This document shows, in pieces, positions 48,044-57,778 of a stretch of DNA of 64,000 bases. This DNA is from Ktedonobacter sp. SOSP1-85 (lineage in GTDB: Bacteria > Chloroflexota > Ktedonobacteria > Ktedonobacterales > Ktedonobacteraceae): the NCBI RefSeq assembly GCF_016587415.1, contig NZ_BNJI01000001.1, positions 4,255,501-4,319,500 of the forward strand, read 5' to 3'. Position 1 is the stretch's first letter, and the number at the start of each line of letters is the position of its first letter. Both the position numbers and the translations under genes were made by a program. Below the pieces are notes generated by a model. That model did not search any database. It was not told the DNA's origin and saw only the letters and a list, made by a program, of their open reading frames with translations.

Positions 48044-48249
48044 AAATGACTTTTTGTGCCTTTCTTATATTCATAGAACCAAAGTATTCTTCTTCCAACC
48101 AACACAATCTTACTTACCTCATCCCTTATAGTACGTTTCTCTCTGGGTAGAAGGCTACTCATGCATAGTAGTTTGGTAGGGGGCTGCGCTGCTAAAGCAC
48201 GCGGGTCGCTTTTGCATTTGTTGCATGTATTTGTCCCTTGTTTTTGCCA

Positions 48250-49878
48250 CTAAAAATAGATGGAGGGGATGCTGACGGTGAGGCTGGTGGCAGAAAGATG
48301 CCAGGTGCTATGCTTTTGTAAACTGGTGGCGCGGTAATAGAGGTCGATGGTGGGGAGGTGCCAGCGTACATCTGAAGGCAGGTAGGCGCTGTTCCCGGCC
48401 GTCAGGAGGAGGTTGGCGATATCCTTGCAGGCCGAGGATTGGAGACAGTTCAGTGTGACATGAGTCATGCTGGGCGTGATAGTTACCTGTGAGAGGCTGT
48501 ATGGCGCATTGTGGCTGGAGCGAGGTGTGGGAATGATCTGCCCAGTGTGAAAAGGCAGGGTGAATTGAAAGCGGAGCGGCTGTGACCCTTTATAGACGGT
48601 AGTAGTGCCGCCTGTCGTCTGGTCGACAAGCCATATTGAGTGGATATCCAGGGTTACATGAAGCTGGTGAATCTCGCCTGGGGTTGGACTTGAGGGTAGA
48701 TAGAAGAAAGAGATATCGTTGTTAGTGTTGTACTGGCCAAAGAACGTGCTATAGGCCGCGTACTTGTGCCCTATGGTTATGCTTGTGTGTAGCTCCTGGA
48801 TGGAGAGCGTACCAAACATGTCCGTGACATCGTTCAAGTTGTTGTAAGCGGACTGGAGGAGAGTATAAGCCAGGCCGATAGCATTAGCATCGGCGTAAGC
48901 TTGTTGAAGCCTGAAAATAAAGCCGGGGCGCGTAGATTGTTGCTGATTAATATCGCTGTAGAGATGTGAATTGCAGATGGAGGGCTGCGCGTGGCTATCG
49001 TTGGACTCGTCGGCGAAGAAGCAAGCTGGCCGATCGACGCGGGCATCATAGTACGCAGGGGTGAAGACTGGAGGGGCTTTAAGCTGGCTTGAAGAGACTA
49101 ACTGATTTTTATTCACAAGCAGCAGGGCCATACCGGACGTAAGCAGAGAGACGACGAGAAGCAGAGAGGTAAGCATCAGTCCCAGGCGCAGGAAGATGCG
49201 TTGGCGCAGGGGGCGCGTATAGGAGGCCGAGGATGAGAGGCGAAGCAGAGTCAGCCCCTGCTGATTGGACTGTTCGCCCTCCTCTTCTTCGCTAGCCAGA
49301 AAGGGTGAGCTGACCTGCTCGCCAGGCTGTGGCAGAGCCAGGATAGCCTCGCGAAGCTCCTCCTCCGTCGCGGAGGCATATTCATCAGAACGCAGCCAGG
49401 ACCAGGCTGACTCCAGGTGGGTGCGCACGCGCCGCTCAGGTAGACCCAGGCAAGCGGTAATCTCGGCCAGCGAGAGCCGGGCCACCACATGCAGGACCAG
49501 GCAGGCTCGTTCATAGAAGGGCAAGCGAAGCACCGCCTTAATGAGTGGGGGGGTGCTTGTAGGCAGCGCGAGGAGTTTATAGAGGGGCCAGGAATGGCGA
49601 CGCAGACCGCGAGCAGAGGGCTCCTGGGCGTCATAGGCGATATTGGTCGCGATACGGTAGAGCCAGGTGAGAAAATCCGCGCCAGGCTCCAGGCCTGGCA
49701 GAGCCTCCCAGGCACTCCGAAATGTGTGAACAGTCAAAGGGGTGGCTTTCTCTTCCCCCAGCAGGCGCACAAGATAGAGTTGGATGCGAGGACTATAGCG
49801 TACGAAGATCCCCTGTATACCCGCGATATCGCCAGCCTGCGCCTGCGAGATAAGATCCTTGTCCCCGGAACTGCTCAT
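48250..49878 (-). CDS. ECF-type sigma factor fused to a membrane helix and outer domain
   Basis: 542 residues. Sigma-70 region 2 (about 8-85, 'TFRSAWEALPGLEPGADFLTWLYRIATNIAYD') and region 4 (about 112-165, 'LPFYERACLVLHVVARLSLAEITACLGL') form an ECF-like sigma. A linker leads to one membrane helix (about 232-257) and then a roughly 280-residue domain that would lie outside. The sigma would thus be membrane-tethered, with the sensor in the same chain in place of a separate anti-sigma. Whether proteolysis releases it is unknown. The outer domain is not recognised. Confidence 0.85.
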   Translation of the reverse strand: MSSSGDKDLISQAQAGDIAGIQGIFVRYSPRIQLYLVRLLGEEKATPLTVHTFRSAWEALPGLEPGADFLTWLYRIATNIAYDAQEPSARGLRRHSWPLYKLLALPTSTPPLIKAVLRLPFYERACLVLHVVARLSLAEITACLGLPERRVRTHLESAWSWLRSDEYASATEEELREAILALPQPGEQVSSPFLASEEEEGEQSNQQGLTLLRLSSSASYTRPLRQRIFLRLGLMLTSLLLVVSLLTSGMALLLVNKNQLVSSSQLKAPPVFTPAYYDARVDRPACFFADESNDSHAQPSICNSHLYSDINQQQSTRPGFIFRLQQAYADANAIGLAYTLLQSAYNNLNDVTDMFGTLSIQELHTSITIGHKYAAYSTFFGQYNTNNDISFFYLPSSPTPGEIHQLHVTLDIHSIWLVDQTTGGTTTVYKGSQPLRFQFTLPFHTGQIIPTPRSSHNAPYSLSQVTITPSMTHVTLNCLQSSACKDIANLLLTAGNSAYLPSDVRWHLPTIDLYYRATSLQKHSTWHLSATSLTVSIPSIYF

Positions 49879-49908
49879 TGCTTTAGCTCCTTTATTTTGT
49901 TCAGATCG

Positions 49909-49926
49909 GGTAGTGCTTCTAAAGGG
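49909..49926 (+). repeat. Partial copy of the conserved-loop element (copy D)
   Basis: GGTAGTGCTTCTAAAGGG matches the first 18 nt of the GGTAG-loop-CTACC element, then diverges. It is 30 bp upstream of the sigma-fusion gene start. Confidence 0.8.
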
Positions 49927-49993
49927 CTCCCTATATGCCTTAAGCTAAGGATTTCCCGCCTATGCAGGAAGGGCCTTGACATGATCGTGTTGC

Positions 49994-50140
49994 CCATGCA
50001 GGAGGGGCCAGGCAATCATCCCGCCGTCCATGCGGGAGGGGTCTTAGTAGCCGGCGCCGTCCATGCAGGAGGTACCCAGCAATCATCCAGCCGCCCATGC
50101 AGGAGGTACCCAGCAATCATCCAGCCGCCCATGCAGGAGG
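49994..50140 (+). repeat. 34-bp tandem repeat array (4 units plus partial)
   Basis: Units begin CCATGCAGGAGG or CCATGCGGGAGG at 49994, 50028, 50061 and 50095, with a partial unit at 50129. Units 3 and 4 (50061-50094 and 50095-50128) are identical. The unit start matches the left-arm sequence of hairpin copies A and B. There are no unique spacers, so it is not a CRISPR array. Confidence 0.88.
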
Positions 50141-50188
50141 GGCCTTGGTAGTGCTTCTAAAGGGCGCACCTACCAAGACCCCTCCTGC
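50133..50188. repeat. Conserved-loop hairpin, copy A (upstream of RAYT)
   Basis: Arms 50133-50151 and 50170-50188 pair at 18 of 19 positions around the loop TGCTTCTAAAGGGCGCAC (50152-50169). The inner stem is GGTAG/CTACC. Confidence 0.9.
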
Positions 50189-50440
50189 TGGACGGCTGCA
50201 CGTCCGGGTGCGCCCCACGCCCGGTAGGTGCGTGGATACTATCTGATATCTGATAAACCCGCCCAAATTGGCTTGGATGGTTGGATATATTTTGCCATTC
50301 TCCAAATGTATAGCTATATTAGAATATACATCAAAAATGTTTAACAATAAATAGCTGTACTCAGAAAATGCCAGGCTGCACATGAAAATTTGCCTACCTG
50401 AATTGCGATGCCATTTTGGATAGTGTATAAAAGAGATGTT

Positions 50441-50956
50441 ATGAGTTCATATAATCGTAAAAGGATCTTGGGTTCTTCTTTTGAACCTAAGCAGCATCAT
50501 TTGCCTGGGTATGATTACAGTAAACCGGGTATATATCATGTCACGATTCATTGTCATAAGCTGGCTCCTCCACTTAGTGATATCGATCACGTGACAGCAC
50601 AAGTTATCTTTTCTCCTGAAGGAAAAAGCGTTTGTGAAGCAATTCAGAAGGTTCCATTATATTTTCCTTTTGTGCAGATAGATTGCTACGCAGTTATGCC
50701 AACCCATATACACATTCTTTTCATTGTGGGAGAGCAACCGCAGCCACAATTTGGGCATACTCGTGTTCGTTTGGGTGATATTGTAGGCAAACTAAAGGGC
50801 CTGGCAACATATCAAACACGCCGTGCAGGAACCTTCGACTTCAGTTGGCAAAGCGATTTTTGCGACACTATCATTTGGAATCGATCTCAATATGAAGTTG
50901 CTCGCCAGTACATTCATGATAACCCTCTATGCTGGCTAGAAAACCACGCTGAATAA
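50441..50956 (+). CDS. REP-associated tyrosine transposase (RAYT, Y1 family)
   Basis: 171 residues from ATG 50441; an ATG at 50408 in frame is also possible. The HUH-like 'VMPTHIHILF' (metal-binding His pair, near 90) and the C-terminal 'QYEVARQYIHDNPLCW' with the catalytic Tyr position are typical of the Transposase_17/RAYT branch. No transposon ends surround it; it is flanked on both sides by hairpin repeats, the arrangement of domesticated RAYT-REP systems. The N-terminal 'HHLPGYDYSKPGIYHVTIHC' pattern also fits RAYTs. It probably nicks and mobilises the hairpins, by analogy. Confidence 0.88.
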   Translation: MSSYNRKRILGSSFEPKQHHLPGYDYSKPGIYHVTIHCHKLAPPLSDIDHVTAQVIFSPEGKSVCEAIQKVPLYFPFVQIDCYAVMPTHIHILFIVGEQPQPQFGHTRVRLGDIVGKLKGLATYQTRRAGTFDFSWQSDFCDTIIWNRSQYEVARQYIHDNPLCWLENHAE

Positions 50957-50972
50957 GCGGCCCACCGCCCAT

Positions 50973-51028
50973 GCAGGAGGGTCTGGTAGTAGTGCTTCTA
51001 AAGGGCGCACCTACCAGACCCCTCCTGC
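50973..51028. repeat. Conserved-loop hairpin, copy B (downstream of RAYT)
   Basis: Left arm 50973-50989 and right arm 51011-51028 pair with one 1-nt indel. The same loop, TGCTTCTAAAGGGCGCAC, lies at 50993-51010. The stem is the same type as copy A (GCAGGAGG...CCTCCTGC). Confidence 0.9.
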
Positions 51029-51096
51029 TGGGAGGCTACGTTTCTATTAGCACCTACCAGACTCCTCTTGCTGGGAGGCCGCATTTCTCTGGTACG

Positions 51097-51169
51097 CCCA
51101 CGCCCGGCAGGTGCGAAAGGTAGGTGCGCCCTTTAGAAGCACTACCTTTCGCACCTGCATGGGCGTGGG
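51097..51169. repeat. Conserved-loop hairpin, copy C (inverted loop, different stem)
   Basis: Arms 51097-51123 and 51142-51169 pair with a small mismatch, but their outer sequence (CCCACGCCC...) differs from copies A and B. The loop at 51124-51141 is the exact reverse complement of the A/B loop. The right arm unit GCACCTGCATGGGCGTGGG recurs at 51197. Confidence 0.9.
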
Positions 51170-52095
51170 TGGCTGCACGTATGTATAACCATTCGCGCAC
51201 CTGCATGGGCGTGGGTGGCCTGCACGTATGTGATGCCTGGCTCGACCTGCATGGGCGGAGGTATATATTTAGACTCTCCTGTCAGTTAGTACTACAGAAG
51301 TTGAAGGTTGAAGAACAAGACATACCAATTTTTGGGGACGTCACGCATAAATTTGACGGCTTTGATGAGTGCAGAAGGTGTTTTTGTGCTATAATGGGGC
51401 AGGATTGCTCGTTGAGCAGGTTATTTTTTCAACCTTCGGGACCATGCTAGTACTTTTTGCCAGAAAAGATGCTAGACATGACGATTAGCAAAAAATCTTA
51501 TACTATCTTTTCTAGGTATCGATACTGAGGTATAAGACATTTGACCCGTGGAAGTTCCGTTTTCAGTCTTTTATCAGTCTTTTGGAATAAGACACAACCT
51601 CACCACCCAGAGGGGTTGAGATCGGGAATATTTCTGGCGGGTTGGTCGCAGGATACAAGATTACTTTGTTGGCGCGTGAGCTGGCTCACACATGCTCGCC
51701 GCCAATGGCAGGGTTCGCGCGGATTGTGGCAGCCCAGAGCTGGCACCCAGTGACCACAATCCCCCTGAACGCCAGTGGGGCATTTGCTAGCACGATCCCA
51801 CTGCGAAAGGCAGCACTGCACATCCGTGGATCGGAAACTAACAATGTGTAGATCATGTGCGTTAAGCACCCAAGAAGGCACATGATAGTAATTTTGGGGG
51901 ATGTACATGTATTGATGCTTGAGGCCCATAGGCAGAAACGGGTATCCTGAACATCAGTGGGACTGGTGGCGAGTAGGCAGGCTCACTCACGCCTACTAAA
52001 TTGGAGATCATGGATATGTCGGGTTGGACCGCAACTTGAGGCTTCAGGTAGTGAATACGCGCGATTATTTCCCCAGGGAAAGGTAGAGAAATCGT
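51170..52095. other. Repeat-containing non-coding region
   Basis: It begins with a direct repeat of GCACCTGCATGGGCGTGGG (51151 and 51197) and then becomes unique. A short direct repeat CAGTCTTTT occurs near 51570. Frames here (for example 51600-51929 minus) lack recognisable features or sites, and none is called. Confidence 0.5.
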
Positions 52096-52275
52096 ATGTT
52101 CAGAAATATGCTGCGTTGGATTATTCCACTGGTCGTCTTGCTCATCGTCATCACTGTCGTCGCCATCGGCGCAGTCACCTATACCCACGCCGCCGGTACC
52201 GCACCGACGCGCCACACAACTGACCAGACCACCCCAACTCCAAGCACACAGCCAAATATCTTCTGGAATGGTTAG
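52096..52275 (+). CDS. Small single-helix membrane or secreted protein with Thr/Pro tail
   Basis: 59 residues, just below common ORF cut-offs. A short basic N-terminus (MFRNMLRW) precedes a strongly hydrophobic helix (about 9-29), then a Thr/Pro-rich tail ('DQTTPTPSTQP'). AAAGG lies about 14 nt upstream. The layout parallels the 64-residue protein at 42938. It is convergent with the STAND gene at 52424. Function unknown. Confidence 0.55.
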   Translation: MFRNMLRWIIPLVVLLIVITVVAIGAVTYTHAAGTAPTRHTTDQTTPTPSTQPNIFWNG

Positions 52276-52423
52276 AAAAACTATGATGAATTATATGCAG
52301 GGAGTAGCGCCACCTTCGCTCGCTGGCGCTCCCTGGCAGGGGGATGCGTTACTTACGTACGCGCCTTTGTGTGGTTGTTGCGCATTAGTATTGTTACTAT
52401 AGTTATCTTTATTTTAGTTATCT

Positions 52424-55027
52424 TTATTTGACGGAAGCTAGCCATTCGCGGACCTCTTCGGCATTGCCATGACCTATCTGTTCTAAAATCTTTAAGCTTT
52501 GTTCACCTAATTGTTGTGCTTCTTGTCCATGTCCTTGTAAGGCGGCAATGCGTGCTCGACCATATTGAGCCTGGGCTTTTTGATCGATAGCACCTTCTGG
52601 AAGAATATTTAACATCTCAGAGAAAGCGCCGTCTGCTTCTTGAAGCCTATTCTGGATAAGAAGAACATTACCCAGTTCGTATAATGCTCCTGCTGTCATC
52701 TGAGGAATACCAATTTGCCTTGACAATGCTAGGCTTTCTTGCAGGTAAGACTCTGCTTGTTTATAACTCCCTTTTTTGCCAGTTACTAAGCCCAAGTTGA
52801 TGAGCAAAATACTCGTCCATTCTCGATGTTCAATTTGGCGTGCAATGCTAAGACCTTCTATGAGATGGGCTTCTGCTTGTCCAAAGTTACCTATTCCCAT
52901 TTCTGCCGCCCCTAAATTTGCAAGTAAAGCACTCATTCGTTCACGATGCCCAACTTGGCGTGCTAATTCCAAGCCTTCTTGAAAGTACTCTTTTGCTTGT
53001 GAATAATTTCCTTGTTGACCAGCATTAACACCCAAGTTCATTAGAATAACACTTGCCATTTCGTGATCTTGCATCTGTCTAGCAAGAGTTAGACTTTCGT
53101 GTAAACATGCTATTGCTTCACTATATTCTCCTTGTAAATTTTTAACTGCTCCTAGCACTCTGAGGATAGCGCTAACACGTTTCTTGTCGTTAATTTGGCG
53201 CGCAATAGTTAGCCCCTCTTGTAGATAATGCTCAGCTTGAGAGTAATTGCCACTTTTCCAAGTAATCCAGCCCAAATCGTTTAGGAACGCGCTAATTTGC
53301 TCTAAGTCATTGTTCTCGCGTGCGAGGGTAAGCCCTTGTTGAAAGACGTCAGCTGCCTGGGGGAGTTTGCCTTGCTGCTGGAGGACCTGGCCGGTGTAGA
53401 GGAGGAGGGTGGAGAGGGAACGCTGGTCGTTGAGGGTGAGGGCGGCTTCCTGGGCGCGCTGGAGGTGTTGCTCGGCCTGGGCGTAGAGACCACGGAGCTG
53501 GAGGTAGGGGGTGAAGGCGATAGTGGCCTGGATAAGCTCGGGGAGCATGGCGAGCTGGTGGGCCTGTTCGAGGGCCGTGAGGATGGTGGGACTCTCAAGC
53601 TCAAGCTGCTCGTAGTCGCTGCTGTGCTCCGCGAGGAAGGCGCAGGTGTAGGCGACGAGGCGGCGCTGGGCGGCGTCGTGCTCGGGGGCGCGCTGGAGCT
53701 GGAGATAGGTGTAGTCGCGAATGGTCTGGTGGAGGGTGTAGCGGCTGGCCCCGCTGCTCTCCAGGATGCCGATGTCGATGAGGGTGTCGAGGATATCGAC
53801 CTCGCAGGTGGCGACGGCCAGAGCTGCCTCCTCGGAGAAGGTGTTGGGGCGCGCCGGGAAGACAGAGAGGGCATAGAAGGCCGAGCGCGTGGCCGAGCTG
53901 AGCTGCTGATCGGTGACGGCGATGACGGAGTGTAGCGAGAGCTGGATATCGCTGGTCAGGCTAGGGTGCGACTCGACGGGACCATGTGGCTCCTGAATTT
54001 GCAGGCGCTCCTCGGCGTTGCTCAGGCGCTCCAGGGCGGCGGTGATGCGGCGCGTCTGCCCGCTATAGGTCTGTTTGCGCAGGTAGTTGCCCATGAGGGT
54101 CAGGGCCAGGGGGAGGCCGCCCACGGCATGAACCAGGTCCTGGGCCTTCTGCACCTCGCGATCAACCACGCCCGGCGCCAGGAGGCGCAGCAGGGTCATG
54201 CTCTCCTCGTCGTTGAGGGCCTGGATCTTCTTCGCGCCATCCAGGGCGATAAATGAGGCGATCTCGGGATAACGCGTGGTCAGCAGGTGCGCGCAATTGG
54301 AGCCGCCAACCTTGAAGGCCAGGGCCTCCTCAGTGCTCCAGGCGTCGTCGATGACCAGGAGCATATAGCGTGTGCCAATGGCGTTATGAATGGCGCGCGC
54401 CCAGGCGTGCACATCGCTCAGAGAGGCCATCTCTGTCGCGGAGATGCCCAGAAGGGTGCCCCAGCGACTCAGCAGGCCCAGAATGTTTGGTTTAGGACCG
54501 AGACCTGCCCAGAGAATGCCATCGCGGAAATGGGTGCGTACCTCGCGGTCATGGGCCAGGGCGATGGAGAGCGTAGTCTTGCCCACGCCAGGAAGACCAT
54601 TGAGCGCGGTCAGAGCCACGTTGCCGCCCGTGAAGAGGCGGCGCTTGATATCGGCGAGCTCTTCATCGCGGCCAACCAGGCGAATGGCAGGCAGAAGCGG
54701 AACGGAGGGATCAACAATAGCCGCGGTAGGTGTGTGGGGCTCCTCGGCAGGAGATTCTACTTCATCGATATTTGAAGTGGTAGTGGCTGGGGGTTCGGAG
54801 CTTGCGTTGGGCACAAGGTCGAGTTCCTGGGCGGTCAGGCCGAAGAGCTGGCAGAGCTTGCGCCGAAAATAAGGATTGGGGCGCGTAATGCCGCGCTCCC
54901 AGCGGCTCACATTCACATGCGTGGTCCCGATCTGTTCCGCGACATCCTGTTGTGAGAGCGAGCGCGCCATCCGAGCTTCGGTGAGCTTCAGACGCGGTTG
55001 TGGCTCAGTTGAGGGAATGTGATCCAC
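52424..55027 (-). CDS. XRE-HTH + NB-ARC + TPR (STAND) regulator
   Basis: 867 residues from GTG 55027 (AAAGGA 7 nt upstream; the frame runs to 55105). An XRE-type helix-turn-helix (about 10-65, 'SQQDVAEQIGTTHVNVSRWERG') is followed by NB-ARC with Walker A 'GLPGVGKTT' (near 148) and 'LLVIDDAWS', then TPR repeats from about 500 to the end. The first about 565 residues are encoded by visibly GC-rich DNA and the rest by AT-richer DNA, with the change inside the TPR array near 53335. It is probably a ligand- or partner-triggered transcription regulator; a defence role is possible. Confidence 0.88.
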   Translation of the reverse strand: MDHIPSTEPQPRLKLTEARMARSLSQQDVAEQIGTTHVNVSRWERGITRPNPYFRRKLCQLFGLTAQELDLVPNASSEPPATTTSNIDEVESPAEEPHTPTAAIVDPSVPLLPAIRLVGRDEELADIKRRLFTGGNVALTALNGLPGVGKTTLSIALAHDREVRTHFRDGILWAGLGPKPNILGLLSRWGTLLGISATEMASLSDVHAWARAIHNAIGTRYMLLVIDDAWSTEEALAFKVGGSNCAHLLTTRYPEIASFIALDGAKKIQALNDEESMTLLRLLAPGVVDREVQKAQDLVHAVGGLPLALTLMGNYLRKQTYSGQTRRITAALERLSNAEERLQIQEPHGPVESHPSLTSDIQLSLHSVIAVTDQQLSSATRSAFYALSVFPARPNTFSEEAALAVATCEVDILDTLIDIGILESSGASRYTLHQTIRDYTYLQLQRAPEHDAAQRRLVAYTCAFLAEHSSDYEQLELESPTILTALEQAHQLAMLPELIQATIAFTPYLQLRGLYAQAEQHLQRAQEAALTLNDQRSLSTLLLYTGQVLQQQGKLPQAADVFQQGLTLARENNDLEQISAFLNDLGWITWKSGNYSQAEHYLQEGLTIARQINDKKRVSAILRVLGAVKNLQGEYSEAIACLHESLTLARQMQDHEMASVILMNLGVNAGQQGNYSQAKEYFQEGLELARQVGHRERMSALLANLGAAEMGIGNFGQAEAHLIEGLSIARQIEHREWTSILLINLGLVTGKKGSYKQAESYLQESLALSRQIGIPQMTAGALYELGNVLLIQNRLQEADGAFSEMLNILPEGAIDQKAQAQYGRARIAALQGHGQEAQQLGEQSLKILEQIGHGNAEEVREWLASVK

Positions 55028-55417
55028 GTGCCATTCCTTTCTGGGCAACAGAAAATGATAAATATGTTTAATTGAATGATAACATATGATCTTTGCTCTG
55101 TACATGTTGATCAGGCATAATTAGATCAGTAAATCTACCTGCTACGTGAGGGAATACGCGGAATGGTAGAAGCCGGGCAAGGGGGGAGGGACTGAAGCGC
55201 ATCAAACCCGGAGCGCGTAAGCGCTGGCAACTAAGGGACTGGCTGCCAGGGAGCGATGAGGAACTCTTCCCCAGAACCTTTTTTACTACTTATCCGAAAA
55301 CCTGAGCACGAAGCGCTAGTCACGCGAGTGACGTTGGGTTTCGGAATAAGATCTTAGTAAGAAGGTAGCAAAACCAGGACACAGGCATTTCCGGGCACAG
55401 GCAACAAAGGAGCTGCG
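55028..55417. other. Intergenic region with a nested hairpin
   Basis: CTTATCCGAAAACC (55289-55302) pairs imperfectly with GGTTTCGGAATAAG (55337-55350), enclosing GTCAC/GTGAC (55319-55323 and 55328-55332). The region separates the divergent STAND and hypothetical genes. No frame is supported. Confidence 0.55.
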
Positions 55418-57379: not shown

Positions 57380-57778
57380 ATGAGAGAACAACATACGAAG
57401 CATGCCATATATAAAATAGCATACCATTTTGTATGGTGTCCCAAGTATCGCAAGACTATTCTGGTGGGGAATATCGCCACGTTTATTGAGGAAGAAATCA
57501 GGCGATTATGTGAGGCGAATACTTGGGAGATCGGCGCACTCAATGTACAGGAAGACCACGTTCACCTCTTTTTGAGTGCGCCACCCGCTATTGCGCCCTC
57601 TCTCATTGTTAATACCCTCAAAGGGATTACTGCGAGACAAGTCTTTAAGCAGCATCCCGAAGTCAAAAAACAACTGTGGGGTGGGAATTTCTGGTCTCGC
57701 AGTTACTACGTTGGCACCGTCGGAGACATGACCGAGGAAACCGTCAAAAAATATATCGAGTTGGGACAAGGGACATGA
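57380..57778 (+). CDS. tnpA: IS200/IS605-family transposase TnpA (Y1)
   Basis: 132 residues from ATG 57380. The fold is the small HUH single-strand transposase: 'FVWCPKYRK' start, HUH 'EDHVHLFLSAPP' (His near 59-61), and the catalytic Tyr in 'VKKYIELG' near the C-terminus. 'GGNFWSRSYYVGTVGD' is a family signature. It cuts and joins single strands at the element's hairpin ends. The stop overlaps the tnpB start (ATGA). Confidence 0.95.
   Translation: MREQHTKHAIYKIAYHFVWCPKYRKTILVGNIATFIEEEIRRLCEANTWEIGALNVQEDHVHLFLSAPPAIAPSLIVNTLKGITARQVFKQHPEVKKQLWGGNFWSRSYYVGTVGDMTEETVKKYIELGQGT

Follow-up and report, generated by a model that had tools for sequence, protein, structure and literature searches.

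A single-copy RAYT gene with a probable family of GTAG REPs borne at the tips of variable but paired stems in Ktedonobacter sp. SOSP1-85

A stretch of 64,000 nucleotides of Ktedonobacter sp. SOSP1-85 DNA (hereafter the window, in which positions are given) harbours what is probably a REPtron: a single-copy RAYT gene with its own family of GTAG REPs, of which the tip and the foot would be read while the outer stem would merely have to pair. The recognised object would be GTAG followed by a 19-nt mini-hairpin (four base pairs, a GCC/AA internal loop, one base pair and a TTNA tip) on one strand, and the RAYT may read GTAG, the internal loop and TTNA. The outer stem, needing no more than to pair, would help the tip to fold in single-stranded or extruded DNA, and copies would additionally have spread as passengers in IS4-type MITEs of about 250 bp.

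The RAYT locus

Three full hairpins and one partial copy surround the gene where the first-pass annotation of the window had placed them, as sequence comparison and repeat analysis agree. Their common 18-nt stretch has four matches in the window when 0.08 are expected, and none of 100 shuffles reaches four. Pattern searches locate the cores. Hairpin A (50122-50198, minus strand) carries its core, GTAG-GTGCGCCCTTTAGAAGCA, at 50152-50173 (minus strand) on an outer stem of about 29 bp. Hairpin B (50964-51036) and its core (50993-51014) are likewise on the minus strand, while hairpin C (51095-51171) and its core (51120-51141) are on the plus strand, inverted relative to B, so that the GTAG ends face inward. 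Copy C does have, as had been remarked, the exact reverse complement of the loop on different arms. Folded as single-stranded DNA, hairpins A, B and C reach -34.8, -25.4 and -37.4 kcal/mol (z of -9.3, -6.1 and -9.7). The partial copy (49905-49931, minus strand; CAGATCGGGTAG...), of the short-stem type, has a decayed GTAG side. Repeat detection further reveals half-arms on the plus strand: a tandem array of six CCGCCCATGCAGGAGG with a period of about 34 nt (49956-50146), an additional core-less copy of the 3' half-arm of B (51050-51088), and three tandem CGCACCTGCATGGGCGTGGGTGGC with a 46-nt period (51150-51265).

The block of gene and REP copies (49892-51285, unstranded) is bounded by flanks collinear with K. 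robiniae (48241-49891, 93%; 51286-52813, 84%). At the orthologous place K. robiniae lacks the 1.4-kb block and has 179 unrelated bp between these flanks, a difference that is either a gain in SOSP1-85 or a loss in K. robiniae. The neighbouring genes code for a 542-aa protein (48250-49878) that matches sigma-70 regions 2 and 4 only weakly, under the Pfam cut-offs, and for an 893-aa HTH - NB-ARC - TPR protein adjoining the block (52424-55105).

The RAYT gene (50441-50956, plus strand; the ORF may start at 50408) codes for 171 residues, and its identity holds on several grounds, namely NF047646, an alignment, and a profile and a fold that both point to 4er8. The profile match with 4er8 has an E of 6e-8, and an AlphaFold model (pLDDT 86) has 4er8 as its top Foldseek match (E 1e-6). 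Solved structures searched with the single RAYT sequence gave no match; a nine-member alignment did match. The motifs are intact (HIH, Gln137, Lys119, Tyr157), and HIH, Lys119, Trp136-Gln137 and Tyr157 are invariant across nine aligned homologs, so that the protein has the HUH motif and the single catalytic tyrosine of the Y1 fold. Curated models score it low, NCBIfam NF047646 at 35.7 bits (E 7e-9) under a cut-off of 80 and Pfam Y1_Tnp at 15.1 under a cut-off of 23, these cut-offs being annotation thresholds and no defining trait of RAYTs. The low scores are due to a divergent sequence, no part of which is missing, and a congeneric profile recovers the assignment.

The gene is single-copy in the genome, flanked by the three cores and the partial copy, and the many remaining Y1 matches are IS200-type transposases, one of which lies at 57407-57760. 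The protein is devoid of the C-terminal tail of 4er8, an absence that is a group-3 trait, and the TTNA of its presumed substrate is constant; it may be a group-3 TnpAREP. A tryptophan stands at the position aligned with Arg104 of E. coli, which may alter contact with the foot. The genome collection contains no close relative of this RAYT, and the three congeners show no RAYT remnant at E values up to 10. Several homologs of the class bear GTAG hairpins on both sides: GTAG-GGACAAGATTTATCTTGTCC, GTAG-GGGCGACC-CTTGC-GGTCGCCC and GTAG-GGGCGTACCCTTGTGGTCGCCC; a repeat search adds GTAG-GGAAGCCATTTATTATTCC to this set of homolog-associated hairpins.

The loop read as a REP

Read on the GTAG strand, the copies take the form GTAG-GTGC-GCC-N-TTNA-N'-AA-GCAC. 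By its sequence, the 18-nt loop is thus an ordinary GTAG-tagged REP, GTAG with a 19-nt mini-hairpin, on one strand only. As in GTAG REP families, the tag sits at the foot of a short one-strand hairpin, here with 4 bp, an internal loop and TTNA, and the copies are many, extragenic and often in inverted pairs. GTAG is found in all 51 long-stem alignable copies and its partner CTAC in 24 of the 51, which makes the foot strand-specific. Among 112 copies drawn from SOSP1-85, two congeners and one genome of the same family, foot bases 3 and 4, TT.A and AA, all near-invariant and unpaired in the mini-hairpin, are conserved at 99-100%, while the G and T of the foot and the GC of GCC stand at 96-99%. 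The pair next to the tip varies in the same 112 copies (C-G 63, G-C 35, A-T 5), and the third base of the tip is free (T in 92, C in 11, G in 8, A in 1). In genome G028 the basal stem is GGGC/GCCC, replacing GTGC/GCAC.

The proposal of the first-pass annotation that a constant loop would set these hairpins apart from known REPs is not supported: what was called a loop proves to be a classical REP, and loop reading by RAYTs is already known, because the loop requirement of the Marinomonas RAYT has been published. There, SELEX and mutation showed that T12, T13 and A15 are needed while position 14 is free, which amounts to TTNA, the very tip of the Ktedonobacter core; Stenotrophomonas TnpAREP depends on the loop and tolerates changes in the stem (PMC8266576). 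With these group-3 systems the present one would share decisive loop positions and a largely tolerated stem sequence, and it shares the missing C-terminal tail. Their REPs have a single plain short stem, however, to which the Ktedonobacter core adds the GCC/AA internal loop and the outer stem (PMC8266576).

The tip, and not the outer stem, is indeed the constant part, though not absolutely so. At least eight of the loci examined have a longer loop, GTAGGTTGTGCCCCTGCGCCCCCGAATGGGGGTTTAGAAGCAC, which keeps the basal GTGC/GCAC and is borne by the same arms; some copies hence share the stem and differ in the loop, an arrangement that had been named beforehand as contrary to the reading. This longer form, which has an inner hairpin of CCCCC/GGGGG, is seen at L065, L073, L075, L123, L127, L135, L136 and L166.

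A variable but paired outer stem

The sequence of the arms varies, as had been remarked, and their pairing persists. The 51 alignable copies display 36 distinct 16-mers and 23 distinct inner 10-mers; the outer stem in this genus is mostly 16-33 bp long. At arm positions 5-20 the paired fraction is 0.876, as against 0.606 (sd 0.020, maximum 0.694) once 3' arms are swapped between copies; copies having been selected for at least 15 of 20 paired positions, the absolute value partly reflects this choice and it is the swap contrast that is informative. Three or more Watson-Crick pair types occur at 11 of 16 arm positions, counts that overstate the number of independent changes because many copies are relatives. 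Pairing is lowest at foot positions 2 and 3 (0.67 and 0.62) and reaches 0.92-1.0 at positions 5-17, which suggests that mispairing at the TA of GTAG is tolerated, or even favoured as an opening of the guide. In about a dozen copies the stem is only 6 bp long (GGGTAG/CTACCC), and the flanks are fixed.

An orthologous site shared by K. robiniae (L127) and SOSP1-85 (L082) illustrates both sorts of change. In its right hairpin the core is the same and both arms differ (GTGCGAAAGG/CCTTTCACAC versus GAGAAAAAAGG/CCTTTTTCTC), while in its left hairpin the stem is kept and the loop differs.

Persistent pairing would favour an outer stem that serves as a folding aid, which is the reading that we prefer. 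Its serious rival is quasipalindrome correction, in which template switching at replication rewrites one arm after the pattern of its partner; the arms would then drift while staying matched, and the pairing would be a by-product without function. This possibility deserves real, if lesser, credence. Imperfect palindromes are an established setting for template switching, and at L127/L082 neighbouring bases of one arm have changed to match the other arm, as such copying would have it; paired arms of this origin would also weaken the case for a REPtron. Yet correction of that blind kind ought to repair the foot too, and mispairing is concentrated precisely there, even though the outcome could be skewed by selection that keeps GTAG on one strand. 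The short-stem copies, too, remain unpaired past 6 bp within their fixed flanks.

Two other origins of the arrangement were considered. That the arms are an independent repeat which received the core was rejected, the arm 12-mer CCTGCATGGGCG being almost always accompanied by cores; the sole core-less hairpin with the same arm sequence, L170 (G000:C3:564557-564665, G000 standing for SOSP1-85), adjoins a MITE terminal inverted repeat (TIR) and a GTAG palindrome, GTAGGGTCCATGCTGGCATGGACC. Insertion of a core into a pre-existing palindrome at K. racemifer L138 is unsupported, since the orthologous sites of K. robiniae and SOSP1-85 bear another GTAG palindrome pair. That pair (L224 and L225), GTAG-ACGCGTGCTTTAGCAGCGT, has the same 19-nt layout, and the REP family at an intergenic site seems to change from one species to the next.

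Genomic spread and nesting in MITEs

The core is a repeat found throughout the genome (11.0 Mb, three contigs). The 18-mer occurs there 31 times exactly and 88 times with at most three mismatches (control, 9), and the core with its GTAG foot 78 times with at most two mismatches (control, 0). Cores often form inverted pairs about 65-130 bp apart and are mostly extragenic: 64 of 75 lie outside long ORFs and 11 inside, when 59% of background positions are inside. Among 84,980 prokaryotic species genomes, a set from which the source genome is possibly excluded, the core pattern is present only in K. racemifer and K. robiniae, with 17 and 20 cores respectively; the congener G032 has none, and none was found in viral contigs. 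A search for clean empty sites of lone cores yielded none, which counts against the REPtron reading. The first-pass annotation would have been wrong had the core been restricted to its locus, and it is not; its other reservation, copies in genomes without this RAYT, does apply, as the two congeners bear cores with no detectable RAYT, a further point against a REPtron.

Inverted repeats CATTGGCGTCAAG (at most two mismatches) enclose at least 21 of the 75 copies, which form inverted pairs within units 240-284 bp long, and a few further copies bear a related TIR. Exact 20-bp direct repeats flank six of 11 such units, another has a single mismatch, and in others the repeats are inverted or have diverged. 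Of the six exact duplications, five correspond to the body of a further REP family, GTAG-GGACCAGCTTTAGCGCGTCC, and the sixth is an unrelated sequence. One pair of units, 100% identical along 263 bp, has distinct duplications, which points to recent movement. The units lie at G000:C1:4756864-4757127, at G000:C2:622019-622282 and at nine more places. The second family, which has a TTNA tip too, counts dozens of copies in SOSP1-85, in pairs about 135 bp apart (for example C1:833969-834132 and C1:6004172-6004199), and no RAYT of its own was found.

A near-identical TIR, CATAGGCGTCAAGTTAAG, bounds an IS4-family element of 1.42-1.44 kb (transposase NF033592, E 7e-50), found eight times in G032 and once in K. 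racemifer (loci L237-L245); autonomous copies were thus seen in congeners and none in SOSP1-85. Its target duplications are unusually long, 20-22 bp, and are mostly terminator-like hairpins beside A/T runs. The core-carrying units, with their near-identical TIR and 20-bp duplications, are therefore most plausibly MITEs of the IS4-family element that insert in palindromes.

With at least 21 of 75 copies inside such MITEs, much of the spread of the core need not stem from the RAYT, which tells against the REPtron reading as well. It is nevertheless unlikely that the hairpins were amplified solely as cargo, with the RAYT a bystander. The exact duplications, the identical units and the presence in congeners of an insertion sequence with near-identical TIR and duplications of 20-22 bp all speak for cargo; over half of the copies, those adjacent to the RAYT included, are without such a TIR, the RAYTs of relatives bear GTAG hairpins of their own, and the highest number of cores is that of the single congener that possesses the RAYT.

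Relation to known systems

Action of the RAYT on the GTAG core, with the outer stem as an aid to folding, would then be the preferred reading. A bolder form of it, rather improbable in our opinion, would have the outer stem as a sequence-free folding handle, whose long perfect arms extrude the REP tip as a cruciform from double-stranded DNA, allowing the RAYT to act without the single strand of a replication fork and the arms to be exchanged provided that they pair. Very improbable is a role at the RNA level, as terminators or 3'-end stabilisers: strong folds and a position mainly outside long ORFs would suit it, but conservation resides in GTAG and the tip and not in any U-run, the strands are asymmetric, and no Rfam family exceeds its cut-off, the miRNA-precursor matches being far under theirs and dismissed as hairpin artefacts.

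That the system belongs to the REP/RAYT kind has good support. With GTAG REPtrons (PMC3733652, PMC2817692) the system shares the GTAG foot, a short hairpin, inverted pairs, extragenic location and a RAYT flanked by copies; it differs in that the Ktedonobacter REP tops an additional stem, mostly of 16-33 bp, of varying sequence and constant pairing. 'Double-foot' REPs of TnpAY1 subclass 2.4 (PMC6006769) likewise combine a GTAG end with a complementary foot at the opposite end; in Ktedonobacter about half of the copies show a degenerate second foot, and the pairing extends outward. REPINs (PMC3116915) have in common with it inverted doublets, and compensatory changes are reported in their spacer stem; in REPINs, however, the REPs form the outer ends of a hairpin, while here each REP tips a hairpin of its own. 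Insertion sequences within REPs are known, among them the IS4-family element ISRm22, which also inserts in REP palindromes (PMC1525189); its duplications are of 6 bp, against 20-22 bp here, where the inserting MITE itself bears REPs of another family. In the literature searched, of which coverage was partial, we found no description of a REP on the tip of a long variable stem. The long outer stem, free in sequence yet paired, and the nesting in MITEs look new.

Some 112 natural copies make up a ready mutational scan of a RAYT substrate, in which fixed bases (GTAG, GCC, TT.A, AA) stand apart from those that only pair, and natural variation of the tip repeats, in a distant phylum, what SELEX had found in the laboratory. 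From this system it could be learned how far REP recognition relies on the tip alone, and whether paired arms persist through selection or through replication correction. The system could also show how two unrelated mobile systems come to nest in each other's palindromes.
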